A stretch of 45,677 nucleotides of DNA. Source: an uncultured Planctomyces sp. GTDB lineage: Bacteria > Planctomycetota > Planctomycetia > Planctomycetales > Planctomycetaceae. The notes beneath the pieces were generated by a model, which saw nothing but the letters and a program-made list of their open reading frames with translations, was not told the origin of the DNA and did not search any database. Below, in pieces: positions 23,177 through 37,653 of the stretch. A program made the translations under genes and the position numbers. How positions within the stretch are numbered: the first letter of the stretch is position 1; every line of letters begins with the position of its first letter. The stretch spans positions 1 through 45,677 of the forward strand of contig CALGTK010000083.1 in the NCBI GenBank assembly GCA_937904325.1, in the 5' to 3' direction.

Positions 23177-24244
23177 CTAATTGCGGAAGTAGATCCAATT
23201 GACGAGTTCATCGGCGATCGACTGATGCTGATAGAATTCGGGCCAGATGTGGCCGTAGCCGATCATCTCAGACAGGTCGTAGTTGCAGACCTGTGACGCT
23301 TGTCTGCCGAACTGCATCAGATCTCTCTCAGTGAACCCGGTACTGCCGAGGGCTCGTTTTGAGAAAGGCCTCCGTAGTGGATAGATCATCAACGCCCAGT
23401 CCTTGCGGACTCGGATATTCAGCAAACATTCTGTCGCGTTCAGTGCATACTCATATCGCTGCCTCGGACAAAGCCAGTCGTGATCAATTGCCGCTCCGGC
23501 AAGAATCGTTCGGATCTGATGCGATGGTTCTTCGCAAATTTTTACACCACATAGTTCACCACCACCCATCAGGTTCAAACCCGAAGCAACAATTCTTGCA
23601 CCGTGGCTGTGACCAATCAGGCAGATCGGCGACTGAGGCGAAATTGACTGGATCAACTTGACCAGACGAATTCCGTTGAACTCGGCTCGTCGGCCTAGAA
23701 TGGCGACATCAAGCCCCGGCACTGCAGAAGTACCGGCGATCGCGGGGTTGAGCGTCAGCAATCCCTCGCTGGCCCACGTCAGAAACACAACCTGCAAATG
23801 CAAATGAGGTGCCGCACGGCGCAGCCACCGAAATGTGTTCTTCGAATCCTCTGCAACGGTATCTGCCGTCACGAAACTGCCATGCACCATGATGCAAACA
23901 GGCACTCCGGGCTTTAGCCACCGATGGAATTCCGTGTCAGAAGATTCAGTGGCGCACCCATCCCAATCCGAGCGGACGTACTCGAAACAGCAATCGTGAT
24001 CGCAGCCGTGGCGTCTCTGCTGACAGTGTCGACCACTGACAATCCAGTGTTTTTCGTTGAAGATCGATCTTCCGGAGCTTGGTAAAGGGACGATGCCAGC
24101 GTCAACTGCGGGGTTCGGTTCTGGCAATTGCAGTATATGTCGGAGCCGAGGCAGGTCCTGCCCGGCAGCAATCGGGTTCATCACGGCCGACAGCAGGGCC
24201 AGCGCGGTGAGAGATAGAAATACGTGAAAGATTCGACGAGTCAT
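23177..24244 (-). CDS. secreted alpha/beta hydrolase with cysteine-rich segment
   Basis: The 355-aa protein has a signal peptide (about 1-28). Residues 70-100 form a Cys/His-rich patch (Cys74, Cys81, Cys85, Cys86, Cys97). The hydrolase fold follows: VPVCIMVHGSFV (oxyanion strand), VVFLTWASEG, and the nucleophile elbow LIGHSHGA (209-216) with Ser213. It looks like the DUF900-type alpha/beta hydrolases seen in planctomycetes, whose substrate is unknown. GGAAG lies close to the ATG. It heads the operon with the HAD and DagK-like genes (72-bp gap). Confidence 0.82.
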   Translation of the reverse strand: MTRRIFHVFLSLTALALLSAVMNPIAAGQDLPRLRHILQLPEPNPAVDAGIVPLPSSGRSIFNEKHWIVSGRHCQQRRHGCDHDCCFEYVRSDWDGCATESSDTEFHRWLKPGVPVCIMVHGSFVTADTVAEDSKNTFRWLRRAAPHLHLQVVFLTWASEGLLTLNPAIAGTSAVPGLDVAILGRRAEFNGIRLVKLIQSISPQSPICLIGHSHGARIVASGLNLMGGGELCGVKICEEPSHQIRTILAGAAIDHDWLCPRQRYEYALNATECLLNIRVRKDWALMIYPLRRPFSKRALGSTGFTERDLMQFGRQASQVCNYDLSEMIGYGHIWPEFYQHQSIADELVNWIYFRN

Positions 24245-24593
24245 AGCTTCCAGATGTCCATCCCGGGAGTCAGTTCAGATTTGGGCAAAGGGTTTAGCCA
24301 ACGCATTCGCAGATGGCTGAGGAAGAAAGTCTTTACCTGAAGTTTGAATAATTCTGCGTAATGAATGTGCGACGGAACGTCTGACGCTACGAATTTAACC
24401 TGGCTTTGTAGCCCGTGTCGGATTTCACACCGACACGATTTGAAGTTCGACACGTGTTTGTCAGGACGGTGGGGTTGGATCGGATTTATCGGAGGGGTTC
24501 ACCTTCCGGACAGCCAAATCAAACCGCCGTAGATACAAAAAGAGGACGAAGCAATCGCTCCGTCCTCGAGTGTGCGATCAACGTCTAATTCGG
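24245..24593. other. 350-bp gene-free region with a hairpin
   Basis: It separates two minus-strand genes and so carries the promoter of the hydrolase operon and the terminator of the giant protein gene. CGTGTCGG (24414-24421) and CCGACACG (24430-24437) form a perfect 8-bp hairpin with an 8-base loop and no U-tract. Confidence 0.5.
24536..24567 (-). terminator. intrinsic terminator of the giant FHA coiled-coil gene
   Basis: On the minus strand GAGGACG plus GAGC (24567-24557) pairs with GCTT plus CGTCCTC (24552-24542), with a GATT loop and a U-rich end of five T. It lies 27 bp after the stop codon. Confidence 0.85.
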
Positions 24594-27500
24594 TTAGACA
24601 GACACATTCGCTACCGTCGAAGTGGCTTCTTGCGTGACTTCCGCAACGTAATCGACAGGCTGGTGCGAATGCTGCGGGTGTGGTGGCCACGTTGTCGTCG
24701 GACCCGGCTGAATCTCCGGCGTTTGCCGAGCGTAACGATCTTCGTAGCTGGGCTGACGAGTCCGGCGAGCACCTGACTTCCTCATCGCTGTTGCCCGTTG
24801 CCAGCGAATAAAAGTGCGGAACATCTCAACGATCGCAATCACTCCGATGATCACCGCTACCCCGCCGTACGTTCTCCACGAAAGCCCTTGATTGAAATTC
24901 TGGGACAGGAATGCTCCGCCCAACCCCATCGAGATACACGCCAGCGAACCATCAATCCACATCTTCCGCTTCAGTTTTCTCTGAGTATGCTCTGCCAGCG
25001 CGTTTCTCGCTGACTGATTCGCGACCTCCCGCAACGAAGTCATGGCCATCCGCCGTGCAAGGTCTCGATTCTTAGTGTGTCGATCATCGGTCTTTTTTGA
25101 AGCTTTCTGTCCGGTATCTGTGGCACTGGAGCGGTCTACTTCCTGTGTCATCGGCGTCACGTTGCGAGCCCATGGTGGTTCCTGAATGATGACCGGTTCC
25201 TCAACGGACAGCCCTTCGTCATTGATGGCCGAATTCGCCTGAGGATTCTCGATTGGAGCTGGTTCGTCTACGAGTTCGTCGCCCGGCTTCTTCATTCCAA
25301 ACATCGAGCCGAGCATCGATCGAAATGCCTGCAACTGCTCTTCTTCCGCGTCCGCATCCTGAGCGGCTTCAGCCAGATCAGAAAGAGCGACCTTTCGCTT
25401 CTTCGTTTTCGTCCTGGACTTCTTGCGAGACTTCCAGGAACTCAACTGCTCCTTCACATTTTCGCCGGCGGAGTCAATCGCGGACTCGTCGACGTCGGCT
25501 TTCAGCGAACCTGCGTCTTCTGCCTCTGCTTCAACTTCTGAGTCAGCAACATCCCACGGATCGTCCTTATTTGCCGGTATCGCTTCGAGTAAATCGCTTA
25601 AGGCCTCTTCAGTCTCTTCCTTCTGCTGCGCAATCTCGCCCCGCTCCTGAAGAAGGGATTCAACTTCAACCTCTATTTCCTCAAATTGTCCTTCCAATCG
25701 TGCAGTTTCTGTTTCACCGAGGCCCCAATGGTCAGCCTCTTCTGATGGCTCGCTTGTCAGAGCTTCATCAAGATCAAAATCCAGGTCGATCGTCTGCTTA
25801 CTCCCTGTACTGTCCTCAGCTAGATCGCCGACCGATTGCTGCAACTGACTCTGCTCCTGACTCAACTGTTGTTTGACGTTTGAGAATTGCTGAACCATTT
25901 GTGCAAGCTGCTGGCGTTCCAGGTGCCGAGCCCGCTGTTCGTATTGCAATTCTTCAAGAGCCATCTGCAGACGTTCCTGAATGTGGGCGTCGTCTGTTTC
26001 TTCAAGCTGATGTGTGAGTTCCTGCTGACGACCATCGAGATCGTCGCGTTCCGACAGCAAGCATTCGATACGTTCAGTCATCACTGTAATCTGTGACTGC
26101 AAACCTTCGCGATTCGCATCAAGCGACTTTGAGACTCCTTTGATTTCGGTTTCTTTCTGAGCAAGCTTTCGCTGACGAGCGACCAGTTTCTGCTTCTCAA
26201 CACTCAATTGCTGCCGCATTTGCTGGAGCTGACGTTGTCCTTCTTCGAATCGTGTTTCTACTTCGTAAAGTTGCGACCTGTCCGCTTCGCGGGCCTGCCT
26301 CTCCAATTGCAATTGCTCAATGGCATCTTCAAGTTGCTGAGCAAGATCGCGTGCCTGCTGGCTGACGTTGTGATTCTGCGAAACGAAGTTGTCTCGCTCG
26401 GTATCAAGACGTTGCCAGTCCGACTTTAACTTTTCTTGCCCTGAACCAAGCTGTTCCATCTGAGAACTGACAGCGTGCTGCTCAATTTCCACTTCTTCAC
26501 GAATTCGAGTCAGCTCCATTTCTTTCTGGGCAAGCGTCATCTGCAGCGTCGACAGTTCATCTTCCTTTGCGGAAACATCAAGTCGATGGGACTGAACTTT
26601 CTCTTCGTCCAGGGTGATCCTGGAACGCAGTGATGCCAGTTTCGCCTGTTCGTCGGCCGTTCGTTTTTCGATTTCTGCAACACGATGACGATCGCTGTCC
26701 CGCTGCAGCCTTTCGTTTTCCAGTTCAGTCAACGCATCTTCGACCCGTTCCATCAGTTGGACTTGTGCCTCGTCCGGATCAAGATCACCGGTCAGCAACT
26801 TCTGCTCAAGTTCGGCGACGCGACGACGATCGTTGTCACGCATTTCGCGTTCAGCTTTCAGTTCCTGGACAGCCTGTTCAAGTCGGGAAGTCAGCTCCTG
26901 CTCACGTTCCGCCAACTCGGTTCCATGACCTGCCAGTTCAACTTTCCCGGTTTCAACATGATGTCGCTGTTGTCGCAGGTCGGCGTGCTCTGAGTTTAAC
27001 TCTTCCATGCGGCTATGTAGAGATTCGCGGTCATTATTCAACGCCGTCTTCGCATCGCCGAGCTGATTTTCAAGCACTTCCAGCTTCTGCTTCAACGATT
27101 CAACATGATGCCGATCCGCAGCGACTTCCGCTTTCTCTGTTTCGACACGAGCAAGGTCTGCGTCGATTCTCGTCTTCTCAGCCTCAATCTTTGCGTACTG
27201 AGATTCCACCTTCGCCTGTTCAAGCGCCAGGCGAGCCCGTTCAGCAGAGACCTCGCCACGTTCTGATTCCAGATTTGTTCGTAATTTGTTGAGCTGCGTC
27301 CGCTGATCTTTCAACTTGTCGACTTCGTCGTCGCACTCAGCTCGTTGTTCGGCAAGCTCGACTTCCACTTTCTTGATTTCGGCTTCACGTTCATTAAGAC
27401 ATTCGACGTTTGCATCGATCTTTGCCTGTTGTGACGGAATCTGAGCTTCGCGAAGTTTCAACGACTCTTTCGCAAGACGCAGTTCTTCGGATGCTCGTTC

Positions 27501-30074
27501 CAGACTGTACTGATTTTCTCTGACCATTGATTCGCGTTGTTCAAGATCCGATCGTCCCGCATCCAGATCTTCCTGGTACGTTGCCAGCTCTGACCGGCGA
27601 GATTCAAGTTGAGCCGCTTCTTCGTCGAACTGTGACCTCGCGTGAGCAAGTTCTCCCTGCTCATCTTCAAGGCAGGCTGACTCTGCTTCGAGCTGCTTCT
27701 GTTTCTCGTGGAAATTGACACGTGCGGCAGCCAACTCGTCGCGGTCCTGGTCAAACTCCCGTCGGTTTTGCGTAAACTCAGCCCGGTCATTGGCTAATTG
27801 CTCCTGAGCAATGGCACAAGTGGCTCGAGCATCGTCAAGTTCGACCTCGCGATTAGCGAGGTTGGATAGTTGAGTATCGAGTTCGGCGTGTCGACTTTGC
27901 AGCTCATCCTTGTGTTGATCACGCTCGTCATGGAAAGTTGAATTGTTTCGCGCGAACTGGTCGAGAGTTCTTGAGATTTCCGCCTGTTGCTCGATGATAC
28001 TCTGCCGTTCTTCTTCGATTTCCTCGCGAAGAGCAAGCTGATCGGTCTCAAAGGTCTGCTGGCGAGAGTCAAGCTCCGCTGCGGCGGACGCAGTCAGTTC
28101 TCGTAACTCTTCAGCTTCAACCCGGACGGCTTCCAGTTGTGAAGTTTCAACGTCGATCGTTTTTCGTTGCTGAGTTATCGCTTCCAGTTCCCGCACCGAC
28201 TCCCTGTGACCTTGGGTGAGTTCATTTTCGCGAGCGTTCAAATCCTGTTGCCACCCATCGAGTCGTGCTGACTCCTGATCCAGAGTTGCGTGTTCTTCTT
28301 CGAGGCGAGCAACCGTCTGGTTCAGCTCTTCCTGCTTCAATGTCGATTCGACATCCAACTCTTCCAGTTGCATCCGCTTTTTGTGTATTTCCTCAGTTTG
28401 CGATGCGACATCCTCGCGTGCTGCCTCAATTTCGGTTTGGGATTCGTCGAGTCGATCAAGTTTACCTTTCAGTTCCGTTTGCTGCTGCTGCATCGCCACC
28501 TTGTCAAGCTGGAACGATTCTCGATCAGCTTCTACTCCCGAATACTCAGTTTCAATTCGGTGCCGTTCCTCGTCCATTTCGCAGCGTTGGCTCTCAAGTT
28601 CGGCATTTCGCCGCCGCAGTTCTGCCTGCGCATCCTGGAACTTCCGACGATCGCGCTCCAGCCGTTCGCGATCAGCTTTCAGCGAAGCGTGGTAATTGTC
28701 GAGTGCCGACTGAGCCGTTCCGTATGCCTGAGATTTTTCATCAAGTTTGTTCCGCTCGTGGTCCAGATCGAGCAACTGCGTTTCGAGAGTCGCTCGATCT
28801 TCTTGCAGCGACTCGCGTTCCTGCTCAAGTTGATCTTCTTGTCTGGTAAGAGAAAAGCTCTTTCGATCCAGTTCTTCATCCTGTTCAGTAATCCGTTGTT
28901 CGCGATCCTTGAGCATCGAAACCCTACGTTCAGCATCTTCCACTTCGAATGAATCGGATTTCTGCTTGAGTTCGAAGTCCTTCTGTCGAGCTTCCAGGTC
29001 CCGGCGTTCACGCTCCATTTGGGCTTTCAGTTGAGCGAGTTCTGCACGATCTGTGTCGATCAGTTTTTCAGGCGACGACATTTGAGCAGCGTTCCATGAC
29101 CCTTTTCCGGTCAGTTGCTCACGCAACGCTTCAATCTCTTCGCGTTGTTCATCCAGTTCTTTCTGCCGCCGATCAAACTCTTCGCGGCGAGCCTCAATAA
29201 TCTTTTCCTGTTCTGCAGACTCTGCTCGCAGTTTCTCCGTGTTCTGCTCGCGTTGTTTAAACTCGTTTTGCCGATGCTCAAGTTCAAGTTGCTGGTTCGC
29301 GAGCGTTGCACGTTTCCGGTCCAGTTCACGCTCGCGTTCTTTAAAATTGTCTTCCCGTGTTAACTCATTTTTCCGCGATTCATCGAGCTCTTCTTGAAGC
29401 TTTATCAGCTCGTGGCGTTCTTCCTTCAGAGCATCGTCGTCACCTTTGAGCGAGAGCGATTGCGTATCCAACTCCGATGGTTCAACACCGTTGGTGCGTT
29501 TGCACAGCGATTGGAATTGTTCGTCGAGTTCCTCGAATTTTGTGTTTAGTTCTTTTTCACGTTCCAGCAATTTGAGCTCGCGGTCGTCAAGTCCCTGGGC
29601 CTCACTGGCAAGGTGTTTTTCCATCGAAGCCAATCGAGAACGTTGATGATTCATCTCTTCCAGCGGAAAGTCATCAACGCTGTCATTGTTACCGTCGTTT
29701 GAGAACGCGGCGTTAACTTCTTCCGCATGAGCCTGACGAATGCGGAACTCGGTTGGACCGATCGCCAGACGGTCATTTTCCATCAGCTCAATTGACTCTC
29801 GAATCGGGCGATCGTTCAGCCATGTGCTGTCACCCCACTCTTTTAGCAGGGTGCTGTTCGCTCCGGAAACAATCAGACAATGCCGAGGCAGGATGGCCTG
29901 GGCTCGCACCGTCAGCGTGCAGACTCGCGACGAACCGATCGTACACTGAGTCCCCGGCAGCAGAAGAATTGCCTGCAAACCGTGATGCTGCTGGATCGGC
30001 TCAATGACCAGTACCTGACGTACCGGGCGGATCGATTGGACTGCGTTACCGTGATTTTCGAACTGTTCTGACAT
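24594..30074 (-). CDS. giant FHA-domain coiled-coil membrane protein
   Basis: The 1826-aa protein has three parts. First is an FHA-like domain (about 20-115): TIGSSRVCTLTV, ILPRHCLIV, STWLNDRPI and DRLAIGPTEFRI. Next is about 1350 residues (138-1495) of nearly unbroken coiled coil, rich in Glu, Gln, Arg, Leu and Lys. An acidic, then basic linker follows, with a conserved-looking FRSMLGSMFGMKKPGDE. Last are two membrane helices (about 1707-1726 and 1735-1755) with a short basic, Pro-rich tail. Most of the chain is therefore cytoplasmic if the tail is also inside. The usual phosphopeptide-binding residues of FHA are mostly lost. The role could be scaffold or filament-like; SMC-like ATPase motifs are absent. 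It has its own terminator. Confidence 0.85.
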   Translation of the reverse strand: MSEQFENHGNAVQSIRPVRQVLVIEPIQQHHGLQAILLLPGTQCTIGSSRVCTLTVRAQAILPRHCLIVSGANSTLLKEWGDSTWLNDRPIRESIELMENDRLAIGPTEFRIRQAHAEEVNAAFSNDGNNDSVDDFPLEEMNHQRSRLASMEKHLASEAQGLDDRELKLLEREKELNTKFEELDEQFQSLCKRTNGVEPSELDTQSLSLKGDDDALKEERHELIKLQEELDESRKNELTREDNFKERERELDRKRATLANQQLELEHRQNEFKQREQNTEKLRAESAEQEKIIEARREEFDRRQKELDEQREEIEALREQLTGKGSWNAAQMSSPEKLIDTDRAELAQLKAQMERERRDLEARQKDFELKQKSDSFEVEDAERRVSMLKDREQRITEQDEELDRKSFSLTRQEDQLEQERESLQEDRATLETQLLDLDHERNKLDEKSQAYGTAQSALDNYHASLKADRERLERDRRKFQDAQAELRRRNAELESQRCEMDEERHRIETEYSGVEADRESFQLDKVAMQQQQTELKGKLDRLDESQTEIEAAREDVASQTEEIHKKRMQLEELDVESTLKQEELNQTVARLEEEHATLDQESARLDGWQQDLNARENELTQGHRESVRELEAITQQRKTIDVETSQLEAVRVEAEELRELTASAAAELDSRQQTFETDQLALREEIEEERQSIIEQQAEISRTLDQFARNNSTFHDERDQHKDELQSRHAELDTQLSNLANREVELDDARATCAIAQEQLANDRAEFTQNRREFDQDRDELAAARVNFHEKQKQLEAESACLEDEQGELAHARSQFDEEAAQLESRRSELATYQEDLDAGRSDLEQRESMVRENQYSLERASEELRLAKESLKLREAQIPSQQAKIDANVECLNEREAEIKKVEVELAEQRAECDDEVDKLKDQRTQLNKLRTNLESERGEVSAERARLALEQAKVESQYAKIEAEKTRIDADLARVETEKAEVAADRHHVESLKQKLEVLENQLGDAKTALNNDRESLHSRMEELNSEHADLRQQRHHVETGKVELAGHGTELAEREQELTSRLEQAVQELKAEREMRDNDRRRVAELEQKLLTGDLDPDEAQVQLMERVEDALTELENERLQRDSDRHRVAEIEKRTADEQAKLASLRSRITLDEEKVQSHRLDVSAKEDELSTLQMTLAQKEMELTRIREEVEIEQHAVSSQMEQLGSGQEKLKSDWQRLDTERDNFVSQNHNVSQQARDLAQQLEDAIEQLQLERQAREADRSQLYEVETRFEEGQRQLQQMRQQLSVEKQKLVARQRKLAQKETEIKGVSKSLDANREGLQSQITVMTERIECLLSERDDLDGRQQELTHQLEETDDAHIQERLQMALEELQYEQRARHLERQQLAQMVQQFSNVKQQLSQEQSQLQQSVGDLAEDSTGSKQTIDLDFDLDEALTSEPSEEADHWGLGETETARLEGQFEEIEVEVESLLQERGEIAQQKEETEEALSDLLEAIPANKDDPWDVADSEVEAEAEDAGSLKADVDESAIDSAGENVKEQLSSWKSRKKSRTKTKKRKVALSDLAEAAQDADAEEEQLQAFRSMLGSMFGMKKPGDELVDEPAPIENPQANSAINDEGLSVEEPVIIQEPPWARNVTPMTQEVDRSSATDTGQKASKKTDDRHTKNRDLARRMAMTSLREVANQSARNALAEHTQRKLKRKMWIDGSLACISMGLGGAFLSQNFNQGLSWRTYGGVAVIIGVIAIVEMFRTFIRWQRATAMRKSGARRTRQPSYEDRYARQTPEIQPGPTTTWPPHPQHSHQPVDYVAEVTQEATSTVANVSV

Positions 30075-33468: not shown

Positions 33469-36123
33469 CTAAGCGGTAGCAGGCTCGACGCATTCTGGTT
33501 CATCCTTTGCCGCTTTGCCCGCCAGGACAACAGTGACCGCAAACAGTACGCAGCCGATTACGTCTGTAATCGGCAACCAGAAGGGGCCTACGTCAATTCC
33601 TGACCCCGGATACAGCAGAAACGCAGCCGCGACAAACAGCAGTCCGCGGCACAGTGGGTTCAACAGGTTTCGCATATAACCTGCCAGGCCTGCGGCAAGA
33701 GCGATGATCCCAATCGCCGCCGCTGCAACCGACATGATGACATTCATGATCGACAGCCGCTGGTCGGTAAACTTTCCCCATGTGTATGAGAAGTTCTGCT
33801 TCTCTTCATCTGTGATTGATGCCTCGTCGCGAGCAGACTCGTAGACATCGATCGAGCCAATGTGCAGTGACTCTCCGAACGCAATCGGAGAGTCATTTTC
33901 CTTCTCAGCATCGGTCTGCGAATTCGGTAACTGTAGTGTCAGTGTCCAGTCACCCGGAGCGAGTTGCGTTCGAATGTTGCCGTAGTCGCCAGTTTCAAGG
34001 CTGAGAGGGGCATCCTGTCCAGACTGCAGAAGTGACACTTTTGCGCCGGGGACAGTTTTCCCGAACTTGTCGAATGTGACACGTAGAACCCCTGACTCCC
34101 CAGCTTCATCCGCCGGTTTGTACGAGATTAACTTCACTTCCGGAGCATCACTTTGCAGAGTGAGCTCCGGCCGATAGACAAACATGAATGGCAATGAGAA
34201 GCCAACCAACGAAAACGCGAACGCAGCAAACGCTGTTTTCATGATTGGAGCTTCCGCGATCGACGCACTCGCGTACGCAGCCAGAGCAACTGGTGGTGTC
34301 ACCATCGACATCATTCCAAAGTAGAAGATGAAGAGGTGAGCGGACAGCGGAATGACGCCTAGTTCACCAAGCAGCGAGCCCATCAGTGTTGCCATCAGGA
34401 GGTAGCAAACAACAGACGGAACGCCCATCCCAAGGATCAGCGAACAAACCATAATCCCCATCAACGCGGCAAACAGGTTGGTCTCGACAACTCCGCGAAT
34501 CGTCGCGCTGAAGTCTGTCGCGATTCCAGTTTGCTGGACGATGCCAATGATGATACCAACACAGGCACTTGCAGCGACAAGAGAAACACCGTTCTTCGCC
34601 GAAGACCCGAACGCCTTCAACATCGCCGGTCGCCAGGCGGGGTGCAGCAAACCAAAGACGAGCAGACAGAATGTTCCGATGAGAGTCGAATCAAGCCATG
34701 ATTCCGCAATCTGTCTGATTGACGGCTCGTCAACGGTATCGGCAATCACAAAGTGGTGGATCAACGTTCCCAGCGCAAACGTGACAAGCGCCAGGCACCT
34801 GGGAGCTGTTCCCAAGGCAAGTTGCTTTCGGAAAATTGAAAGAAACAGGATCCCGATCAATGCTCCGGTCACTGATTTAAATGGCGAGAACCCCCAGACA
34901 AGCAGGCCGACGAGAATTCCTAATGCGCCAAAGAAAACGACTGCCTCAAACTTCCAGATCGACCCCTTGTCAGTTCCGTCAGATTGAATCGCTTTTGCGC
35001 CTACTCGCTTCGAGTAGAAGTGAACGATCATGAAAATCGAGAGGTAGTACAGAATTGCTGGTACAAGTGCGGCCTTCGCGACTTGCAGGAAAGTGACCTG
35101 AGGCTGGACAAGTTCCAGCATCATGTATGCGCCGGCCCCCATCACCGGAGGGACAAGCGCACCGCCAGATGCAGCTGCGGCCGTAATTCCTCCCGCGACG
35201 TGCCGTTCGAATCCAGCGTTTCTCATCATTGGAATCGTAAATGCTCCGGTCGTCACCGCATTCGCAACGGCGCTGCCAGACAGCGATCCCATCAATCCGC
35301 TACCGAGTACAGAAACTTTCGCAGGACCACCGGGACTTCGACCAAAAATCCTCTCGGCAAAGTCGATGATGAACTGCGTGGCCCCGGACATTTCGAGAAA
35401 TGTCCCGAATACGACGAACAGGAATACGTACTTGAACATGACTGTCGCTGCCGGGCCGAACACTCCCAGAGTCTGCAAATACGTTGTGGCAACGATGGCG
35501 TCGACACTTTGCCCGGCATGCGGAAGCAGCCATTCAGGCATGGATGGCCACCCATAAGTTTGCACGGCGAAGCAATAATACGAATGACCAACAAAAGTCA
35601 GAGCGAGCAACGGCACGATCAGCCCGATCGTTCGCCGCGTGGCTTCCAGAACGAGTACCAGTCCGACCAGTCCGATCTGGTAGTCGAGCGGTTGTTCATC
35701 GCCTGCTCGATTCGCGAGTGACTGCTTCTTCAGCCAGAAGCTCTCGAAGAAGGGTTCCGTCTGAACGATCACATAGGCACAGCAGACGCAGGCAGCGACT
35801 CCCAACAGGACGTCAAACCAACGAGCGAGCTGGTTGTCCTTGAATTTCGGATGAATTGGATACTGAATAAAGCAAAGAGCCATCCCGAACAAAACAAATA
35901 ATGCCAGCGCAGACTGCGGCTGCATGCGGTTGTAATTTACCTCGGCCAACGTGAAGAGGCAGAGTAAAACGCTCAGCAACGGAACAACGAACTTTGTCAT
36001 TTTCGCAAACGCGTCTGGTGCTACCGGCAACGGGGTTGCGACCGCCTCGCCATCATCCGAATTTCGGGACTGCGGGCTTTCTTGAGCTTCAGAGTTCGGT
36101 TGGCTGTTCACGTTGTCTGTCAC
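33469..36123 (-). CDS. TRAP transporter fused permease (4TM/12TM, TAXI type)
   Basis: The 884-aa inner-membrane protein fuses the small and large TRAP permease subunits. Membrane helices begin near residue 42 and run to about 650. Diagnostic stretches are GVFGPAATVMFKYVFLFVVFG, LGSGLMGSLSGSAVANAVTTGAFTIP-like sequence and GGITAAAASGGALVPPVMGAGA. After residue 655 lies a soluble beta-rich domain of about 130 residues (GVLRVTFDKFGKTVPGAKV, APGDWTLTLQL), like DUF3394, then two more helices near the C-terminus. It should import an organic acid with a sodium or proton gradient. Its receptor is the lipoprotein 133 bp upstream. The substrate is unknown. Confidence 0.93.
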   Translation of the reverse strand: MTDNVNSQPNSEAQESPQSRNSDDGEAVATPLPVAPDAFAKMTKFVVPLLSVLLCLFTLAEVNYNRMQPQSALALFVLFGMALCFIQYPIHPKFKDNQLARWFDVLLGVAACVCCAYVIVQTEPFFESFWLKKQSLANRAGDEQPLDYQIGLVGLVLVLEATRRTIGLIVPLLALTFVGHSYYCFAVQTYGWPSMPEWLLPHAGQSVDAIVATTYLQTLGVFGPAATVMFKYVFLFVVFGTFLEMSGATQFIIDFAERIFGRSPGGPAKVSVLGSGLMGSLSGSAVANAVTTGAFTIPMMRNAGFERHVAGGITAAAASGGALVPPVMGAGAYMMLELVQPQVTFLQVAKAALVPAILYYLSIFMIVHFYSKRVGAKAIQSDGTDKGSIWKFEAVVFFGALGILVGLLVWGFSPFKSVTGALIGILFLSIFRKQLALGTAPRCLALVTFALGTLIHHFVIADTVDEPSIRQIAESWLDSTLIGTFCLLVFGLLHPAWRPAMLKAFGSSAKNGVSLVAASACVGIIIGIVQQTGIATDFSATIRGVVETNLFAALMGIMVCSLILGMGVPSVVCYLLMATLMGSLLGELGVIPLSAHLFIFYFGMMSMVTPPVALAAYASASIAEAPIMKTAFAAFAFSLVGFSLPFMFVYRPELTLQSDAPEVKLISYKPADEAGESGVLRVTFDKFGKTVPGAKVSLLQSGQDAPLSLETGDYGNIRTQLAPGDWTLTLQLPNSQTDAEKENDSPIAFGESLHIGSIDVYESARDEASITDEEKQNFSYTWGKFTDQRLSIMNVIMSVAAAAIGIIALAAGLAGYMRNLLNPLCRGLLFVAAAFLLYPGSGIDVGPFWLPITDVIGCVLFAVTVVLAGKAAKDEPECVEPATA

Positions 36124-36256: not shown

Positions 36257-37390
36257 CTACTTTGAATCGCCAGTTTCAGCCGGTGCTGTGCCGTCTGTGT
36301 TGTCGGCAGGTGCCTCAGTTTCGCTCGAAGCGTCATCAGCCTGAGCTGAATCAGAATCACTTTCTGACGCAGGCCAGATGCCAGCTTCTTTGTAAAATTT
36401 AACGGCTCCCGGGTGAAACTCCGTGCCCGTATATCGAGCCGCGTTCTTTTCGTTGATCGCCTTGCCGGCTCCATGCTTTTTGACGATGTCTGCCCGATTC
36501 TCCCAGGTTGTCTTTGTAAGCTGGTAAACCAACTCTTCGTCCGTCGATGCTGCGGTGATGACGTGCATTGATCCTACGTTCAGCCCGTCAAATGGTTCTT
36601 CATGTCCCTGGTAGGTACCGCCGGGAATCGTGATGGCATGAAAGAACGGGTACTTGTCGATCAATCGCTGACGAACTTCGGGATCGAACGGTACGAAACT
36701 CGTTTCGTAAGAGGCACACGCCTGGCTGATCGCGGCAGCCGGAACGGCGCCACCGAGGAATGCAGCATCCGCAGCACCGTCAGACAACATGTCGACGGCC
36801 GGACCTTGCGGAGCGTTAACTTTGTCGATGTCTGCCAGCTTGACTCCGTGCTCTTCCAGAATCGGACCGACAAACATTTCGAAGCCAGCACCGGCTGGCC
36901 CGATGACAACTCGCTTGCCTTTCAAATCCGCGATGGACTTAATGCCTGAATCAGCCTTCGTCACAAACATGGCAACGTTCGGCGCCATGGTCACGACGGC
37001 TCGGATGTCGTATTTCTGATCCCATGACGATTCGCCTCGGAACGCAAAGTACGAGATGGCCGAATTGGACAGTGCGAGCTGCAGATCCCCTTTCGCCAGA
37101 CCTCGAATGTTTGCCTGCGATCCCTTAGTGCCCTTGGCCTGAACTTTCCAGTTGTTTTCGTCCTTGTGCGTGTTCAACGTCTGGGCGATTGCGTCACCAA
37201 CGATCGGGAATGTTCCGCCAATGGGCGCTGTGCCCATACTCAGAAATGCGGTTCCACCCGTCGCAGGTACTGTCGGATCATTAGCGCCGGGATCAGTGGT
37301 CTCTCCTCCGGTGCAGCCAGAGAAAAATGAAACGGCAACCAGACATGCCGTCGCAGCGAGTGTCCAGCGTTTGAAAATGTTCCTGGCCAT
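36257..37390 (-). CDS. TAXI family TRAP solute-binding lipoprotein
   Basis: The product is 377 aa from the ATG at 37390, which has AAGGA nine bases upstream; a TTG two codons earlier is less likely. The signal ends in a lipobox with Cys26 (FFSGC), so the mature protein is a lipoprotein anchored outside the inner membrane. The TAXI core follows: FLSMGTAPIGGTFPIVGDAIAQ-like sequence, then LQLALSNSAISYFAF, ADLKGKRVVIGPAGAGFEMF and DAAFLGGAVPAAAI. The C-terminal 40 residues are acidic and disordered. It binds an organic acid and passes it to the fused permease downstream. Confidence 0.93.
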   Translation of the reverse strand: MARNIFKRWTLAATACLVAVSFFSGCTGGETTDPGANDPTVPATGGTAFLSMGTAPIGGTFPIVGDAIAQTLNTHKDENNWKVQAKGTKGSQANIRGLAKGDLQLALSNSAISYFAFRGESSWDQKYDIRAVVTMAPNVAMFVTKADSGIKSIADLKGKRVVIGPAGAGFEMFVGPILEEHGVKLADIDKVNAPQGPAVDMLSDGAADAAFLGGAVPAAAISQACASYETSFVPFDPEVRQRLIDKYPFFHAITIPGGTYQGHEEPFDGLNVGSMHVITAASTDEELVYQLTKTTWENRADIVKKHGAGKAINEKNAARYTGTEFHPGAVKFYKEAGIWPASESDSDSAQADDASSETEAPADNTDGTAPAETGDSK

Positions 37391-37653
37391 GATCAACGTT
37401 CCTTGAAGAAGAATGCTTTGTTATACGATCACTCGCTGTCGATACCGACAGCAGGATGGCGATTGTTTTTGATTCAGATCGGTCGGCGGAATTTCAGGGA
37501 TTCTGCCGAATCGGGAGAGACGAAACGGAGTTCCCGGACGGAACACAGGTGGGGAAATTGATCTGCGTGCATCACAACCAAATTGAGGTCAAAAGACACA
37601 AAGCGATCGTATCAGTCGCCAATTGGCCTTTCCAGTGACTGGCCGGAGTCTCT

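Follow-up and report, generated by a model that had tools for sequence, protein, structure and literature searches.

The window, the 45,677-nucleotide stretch of DNA from an uncultured Planctomyces sp. analyzed here, contains a gene (24594..30074, minus strand) for an 1826-residue protein with an N-terminal FHA domain, a long coiled coil and a C-terminal two-helix membrane hairpin. The protein is a member of a broader family, not named as such in Pfam or NCBIfam. Within this family it is a lineage-specific secondary duplicate (clade A, here paralogue A), which carries the longest coils. No description of a membrane-anchored FHA coiled-coil family was found in the literature searched, most of it outside the subscription journals. 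Judging from sequence, we propose that the family protein is cytoplasmic and anchored to the membrane, where it acts as a long-range tether or scaffold, with a probability of about 0.55.

Translation of the gene gave a single intact frame, with no internal stops or frameshifts. Orthologues are present at L032, L033, L036 and L037, and the one in the near neighbor L032 is 84% identical to the window protein. The first-pass annotation had described an FHA-like N terminus, a long coil and a two-helix anchor in one gene. Our analysis confirms this layout and adds the minus strand. The annotation had named homologues limited to one strain or a frameshifted gene as grounds for dropping its view, and the L032 orthologue and the intact frame speak against both.

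The FHA domain comprises residues 37-115 (29730..29966, minus strand), as defined by Pfam, a family alignment of 33 members and profile matches to solved structures. PF00498 matches residues 44-106 with 28.0 bits, above the cut-off of 20.7, and relatives score 25.9-38.7 bits. The residues that bind phosphothreonine in canonical FHA domains, the Arg of GR, the Ser of SxxH and the NG loop, are missing in the window protein and in nearly all of the 33 members. In the window protein GR is replaced with GS, the Ser of SxxH with Pro and NG with ND. In the family alignment, the invariant Gly of GR is followed by Ser in 29/33 members and Arg in 2/33. Most members have Pro, Ala or Glu in place of the SxxH Ser, which is kept in 1/33, and the His is retained in 31/33. 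The Asn in the last loop is invariant and mostly followed by Asp (Gly in 4/33); a TWLND block is characteristic of the family. The earlier term ‘FHA-like’ thus calls for a qualifier, given the absent binding residues.

The solved sequences closest to the family FHA profile are those of Ki-67 (E = 4e-10) and the kinesin-3 KIF13B (3fm8, E = 1.2e-9). In both KIF13B and the planctomycete family, IGS and P-x-H-C (PEHC in the alignment) replace GR and SRxH. The KIF13 FHA domain binds CENTA1 independently of phosphorylation (PMC9355967). Together with the missing phosphothreonine-binding residues, these nearest profiles make a phosphorylation-independent protein-binding head the better inference, and by analogy the family FHA head may capture proteins with no need for phosphothreonine. 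The FHA domain is located near a coil in kinesin-3 as well, but the planctomycete family is bacterial, with no motor domain (no kinesin match in Pfam for the window protein) and no microtubules. The assignment of the FHA fold rests on these profiles, since AlphaFold gave a poor model (pLDDT 49) from a two-sequence alignment, and a Foldseek search with this model gave nothing usable. The genome of the window has 29 FHA-domain matches, most of which score above the FHA domain of the window protein. The R. baltica FHA protein RB1789 was rejected as a counterpart; at 243 residues, it is too short.

A degenerate FHA fold is also found in Yop-YscD_cpl (PF16697) of the type III secretion inner-membrane ring. 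Several relatives pass the Pfam cut-off for this family of 33.2 (35.9-45.6), whereas the window protein scores 30.9. The periplasmic ring domains of YscD/PrgH are absent here; the C-terminal part is a hairpin and a short tail, preceded by the long coil. No type III secretion families were found among the neighboring genes scanned, and we rejected this assignment.

The coiled coil extends from about residue 121 to about residue 1506 (25557..29714, minus strand), approximately 1385 residues, with a weaker heptad signal at 506-582 and 1045-1198. At period 3.5, the hydrophobic residues give a mean spectral power of 0.80, about five times that of shuffled sequences (0.165 +/- 0.027; z about 24). 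This agrees with the earlier estimate of about 1350 residues and on the order of 200 nm; a straight coil of the length found would measure about 200 nm. The most conserved part is located at residues ~930-1395 (25890..27287, minus strand). Most of this stretch is 52-69% identical to the proteins of G047 and G011, compared with ~15-40% for most other parts of the coil, and its conservation in paralogue A about equals that of the ends of the protein. A 26-residue element occurs in it four times, at residues 1065, 1111, 1248 and 1369. These copies score far above the coil background, and the next best site in the window protein scores far lower. The conserved stretch and its repeats suggest that this part of the coil is more than a spacer and serves as a surface for docking or packing. 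The aligned orthologues are longer, ~2220-2320 residues, because they contain a contiguous 436-residue coil segment that is absent from the window copy. The site is at residue ~400 (28872..28877, minus strand), and the two break points are similar in sequence. Either a natural in-frame deletion of 1308 bp or a collapse by the assembler would account for the gap.

The C-terminal module begins with the family signature LREVANQSARNALAEH (residues 1681-1696; 24987..25034, minus strand), located just before the membrane hairpin. Its family-wide form is [LFM]R(E/Q/D)(V/L/I)AN.(S/N)AR.A(V/L/I)A.(H/S), followed by two helices. The hairpin itself (residues ~1710-1758; 24801..24947, minus strand) is indicated by hydropathy, flank charge and an AlphaFold model. 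Its first hydrophobic stretch, TM1 (~1705-1728), is weak, with a mean Kyte-Doolittle value of 1.34, and TM2 (~1736-1758) is clear, with 2.15. The AlphaFold model, from two sequences only, shows two helices joined by a turn, the first of them long (pLDDT ~70-76). Lys and Arg outnumber Asp and Glu on both flanks, 6 to 2 before the hairpin and 8 to 2 after it, which predicts that both termini are located inside. The tail after the hairpin (residues 1759-1826; 24597..24800, minus strand), basic and then Pro/His-rich, would accordingly be cytoplasmic. The N terminus has no signal peptide-like start and Pfam found no NTPase domain, so that by the positive-inside rule the coil is most likely cytoplasmic. 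The module has neither a consistent Pfam match nor a significant solved relative.

We found this module to be widespread in part of the class. A search of relatives’ contigs with the full protein returned a single near relative, recorded as ‘uncultured Planctomycetaceae bacterium’. A profile of the C-terminal module matched 113/150 genomes and 52/58 genera of the window's own family (f1). A wider profile matched 142/297 genomes of the class, in families f1, f5, f7, f9, f81, f82, f84, f85 and f87-f92. Families such as f1, f5 and f82 probably belong to the order Pirellulales. With the best ~15 candidates scored per genome, the module was below detection at this sensitivity in the sampled f2, f3, f4 and f6 of the same class. 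The phylum-wide search matched 41/342 genomes, all in f1, f5, f7, f9 and f81, and detected none in other classes. The N-terminal FHA domain and the C-terminal module occur together in 49 proteins examined, from about ten families, and 131 of the 142 matching genomes have one match each. The conserved architecture at about one copy per genome that the first-pass annotation had named as support for a scaffold is therefore largely in place. A bridge of fixed length is not supported. The linker between the FHA domain and the module ranges from 350 to 1991 residues (median 970), which argues against a ruler. The heptad z exceeds 5 in 43/49 linkers, and some are barely coiled. In L112, L128, L129 and the second copies (paralogue B) in genomes with paralogue A, the linker is rich in Pro and Gly and either short or weak in coil signal. 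A stiff rod is thus not essential to the family.

The genome of the window has two copies, paralogue A in the window and a contig-end fragment of paralogue B on C25. The sequences of paralogue A group as a single clade with full local support in the tree, and they are found in the window's genus, G047/G119, G011 and G031/G110. Seven A-bearing genomes have B copies that can be read whole or in large part (G003, G004, G001, G011, G047, G119 and G110). These contain 42-182 coil-like residues, compared with 1295-1820 in A; most f1 relatives without A have roughly 250-1150. The FHA domain was not recognized in the B copies of G001, which is cut by a contig end, and G110. A coil long in A and nearly lost in B resembles a division of labor after duplication, as far as the sequences indicate. 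In G031 (L038:3755-10555), either sequencing error or gene decay has broken paralogue A up into three open frames of 248, 217 and 1753 residues.

The single-copy gene divergently adjoins the same tandem pair of genes in 12 genera of two families: g51, g17, g44, g25, g35, g38, g33, g14, g8, g16 and g22 in f1, and g265 in f85. This kept adjacency suggests co-regulation. Read by eye, the first pair member, of ~390 residues, combines a zinc ribbon (CxCG...CxxC) and a single apparent TM helix with an outer part that resembles TPR. The second is an exported TPR-like protein of ~520 residues with a BamE-like C terminus (GMTxxxVxxxLGxP). Neither has a Pfam match. Each is found in 46-47 of 59 relatives, some in families without the coil protein, which indicates that the pair can exist alone. 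Example loci of the pair are L042:2095-4805, L091:2982-5686 and L044:2290-4988, and it also occurs in f2, f4 and f6.

Paralogue A does not adjoin this pair. It is flanked by Sua5 and an exported 355-residue protein, solely in the window's genus. The latter, encoded downstream of the window gene (23177-24244, minus strand), has no Pfam or NCBIfam match. We rejected it as a partner, because it is mostly single-copy across f1 genomes and usually not close to the coil gene (~6 kb away in G023). Past the stop of the window gene, a hairpin (24536..24566, minus strand) with a perfect 7-bp stem, GAGGACG...CGTCCTC, followed by TTTTT, resembles an intrinsic terminator when read by eye. It suggests that the window gene is not co-transcribed with the downstream gene. 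Elsewhere in the window, an 884-residue DctM-type TRAP subunit (33469-36123, minus strand) lies beside an NMT1-like, TAXI-type binding protein (36257-37396, minus strand), resembling a TRAP-TAXI operon.

From these features we infer dimerization, topology, partner binding, tethering and a link to the envelope pair. The two-helix hairpin would anchor the protein in the cytoplasmic membrane so that both of its ends face the cytoplasm. The coil would form a parallel dimer that extends up to ~200 nm or runs along the membrane. At the far end the FHA head would catch a protein partner with no phosphothreonine required, as the KIF13 domain does. The single-copy (B type) form probably acts at the envelope together with the products of the divergent pair, the zinc-ribbon/TM protein and the exported TPR-like protein, and after duplication paralogue A probably took on the long-coil function. 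The tether is supported by the architecture, the copy number, the missing phosphothreonine-binding residues, the positively flanked hairpin, the gene pair, the split in coil length between A and B and the conserved repeats. The weakly coiled linkers in some members, the weakly hydrophobic TM1 of clade A and the location of paralogue A away from the envelope pair count against it. Golgins, like other coiled-coil tethers with a tail anchor, also have a long coil, a C terminus at the membrane and a free end for capture. This likeness is in layout, and we claim no sequence relation; the tethering function of the planctomycete protein is putative.

The same features could be assembled differently. 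The very long coil would suit a membrane-attached, self-assembling cytoskeletal filament similar to intermediate filaments (cf. crescentin or FilP), in which lateral packing of coils shapes the cell. The four repeats and the conserved coil stretch would fit such packing. We consider a filament unlikely, as the length and strength of the coil vary widely (350-1991 residues) and the conserved parts are the head and the membrane module. A phospho-signaling receptor or adaptor is a little less likely still. Its FHA domain would recognize the phosphothreonine that Ser/Thr kinases produce and bring proteins to the membrane. Such a protein would resemble metazoan SLMAP in STRIPAK, which also faces the cytoplasm and shares the order of FHA domain, coiled coil and C-terminal membrane anchor. 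The genomes of related planctomycetes carry tens of Ser/Thr kinases (PMC11032199), and the 29 FHA matches of the window's genome would be in keeping with such signaling. However, SLMAP has a tail anchor (PMC2712456); where such an anchor is a single C-terminal helix, the window protein has a pair of hydrophobic stretches followed by 68 more residues. The SLMAP FHA domain binds an autophosphorylated kinase linker (PMC5663475), whereas the planctomycete domain is non-canonical, lacking the phosphothreonine-binding residues in nearly all members. The likeness is in the order of parts, and we do not claim homology outside the FHA fold.

The ftsZ gene has been lost from the whole planctomycete phylum (PMC10632474). 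A membrane-anchored protein, near single-copy and deeply conserved inside an FtsZ-less group, might be a group-specific division or budding scaffold that replaces part of the FtsZ machinery. We give this little credence. The module is undetected in sister families that likewise lack FtsZ, which argues against a universal FtsZ substitute or division factor, and none of the neighboring genes scanned was recognized as a division gene. As a general replacement for FtsZ, the division role raised in the first-pass annotation is not supported, with the module undetected in f2, f3, f4, f6 and other classes. In the main text of the paper on essential genes of P. limnophila, neither FHA nor coiled-coil proteins are mentioned. 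Least probable by far is a chromosome- or DNA-linked coil, either SMC/Rad50-like or a nucleoid tether. NCBIfam SMC models do align to the coil, but their scores are far under the cut-offs (62 bits against 567) and cover coil only, as expected for any long coil; we rejected the SMC, HmpF and Rad50 matches as coil similarity. No ABC-type ATPase head (Walker A/B) was found at the coil ends with Pfam and NCBIfam. The earlier statement that SMC-type Walker motifs are lacking holds, with no NTPase domain in Pfam and no AAA or SMC_N match.

The membranes of planctomycetes are unusual, and these bacteria divide with no FtsZ. Tentatively, the tether reading may extend to a system conserved in a large clade of planctomycetes that bud and lack FtsZ. 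A phosphorylation-independent FHA domain on a stalk of 200-300 nm at most, with the zinc-ribbon/TM and exported partners, might organize membrane invaginations, the nucleoid or the envelope, a function duplicated and split in the relatives of the window. The near single-copy, membrane-anchored long-coil protein and its conserved neighbor pair are a concrete, deletable candidate organizer of the planctomycete cell plan. The head suggests that a class of non-canonical, kinesin-3-like FHA domains joined to a coiled coil exists in bacteria. The duplication with loss of the coil in one copy provides a natural experiment to separate the function of the stalk from that of the head.
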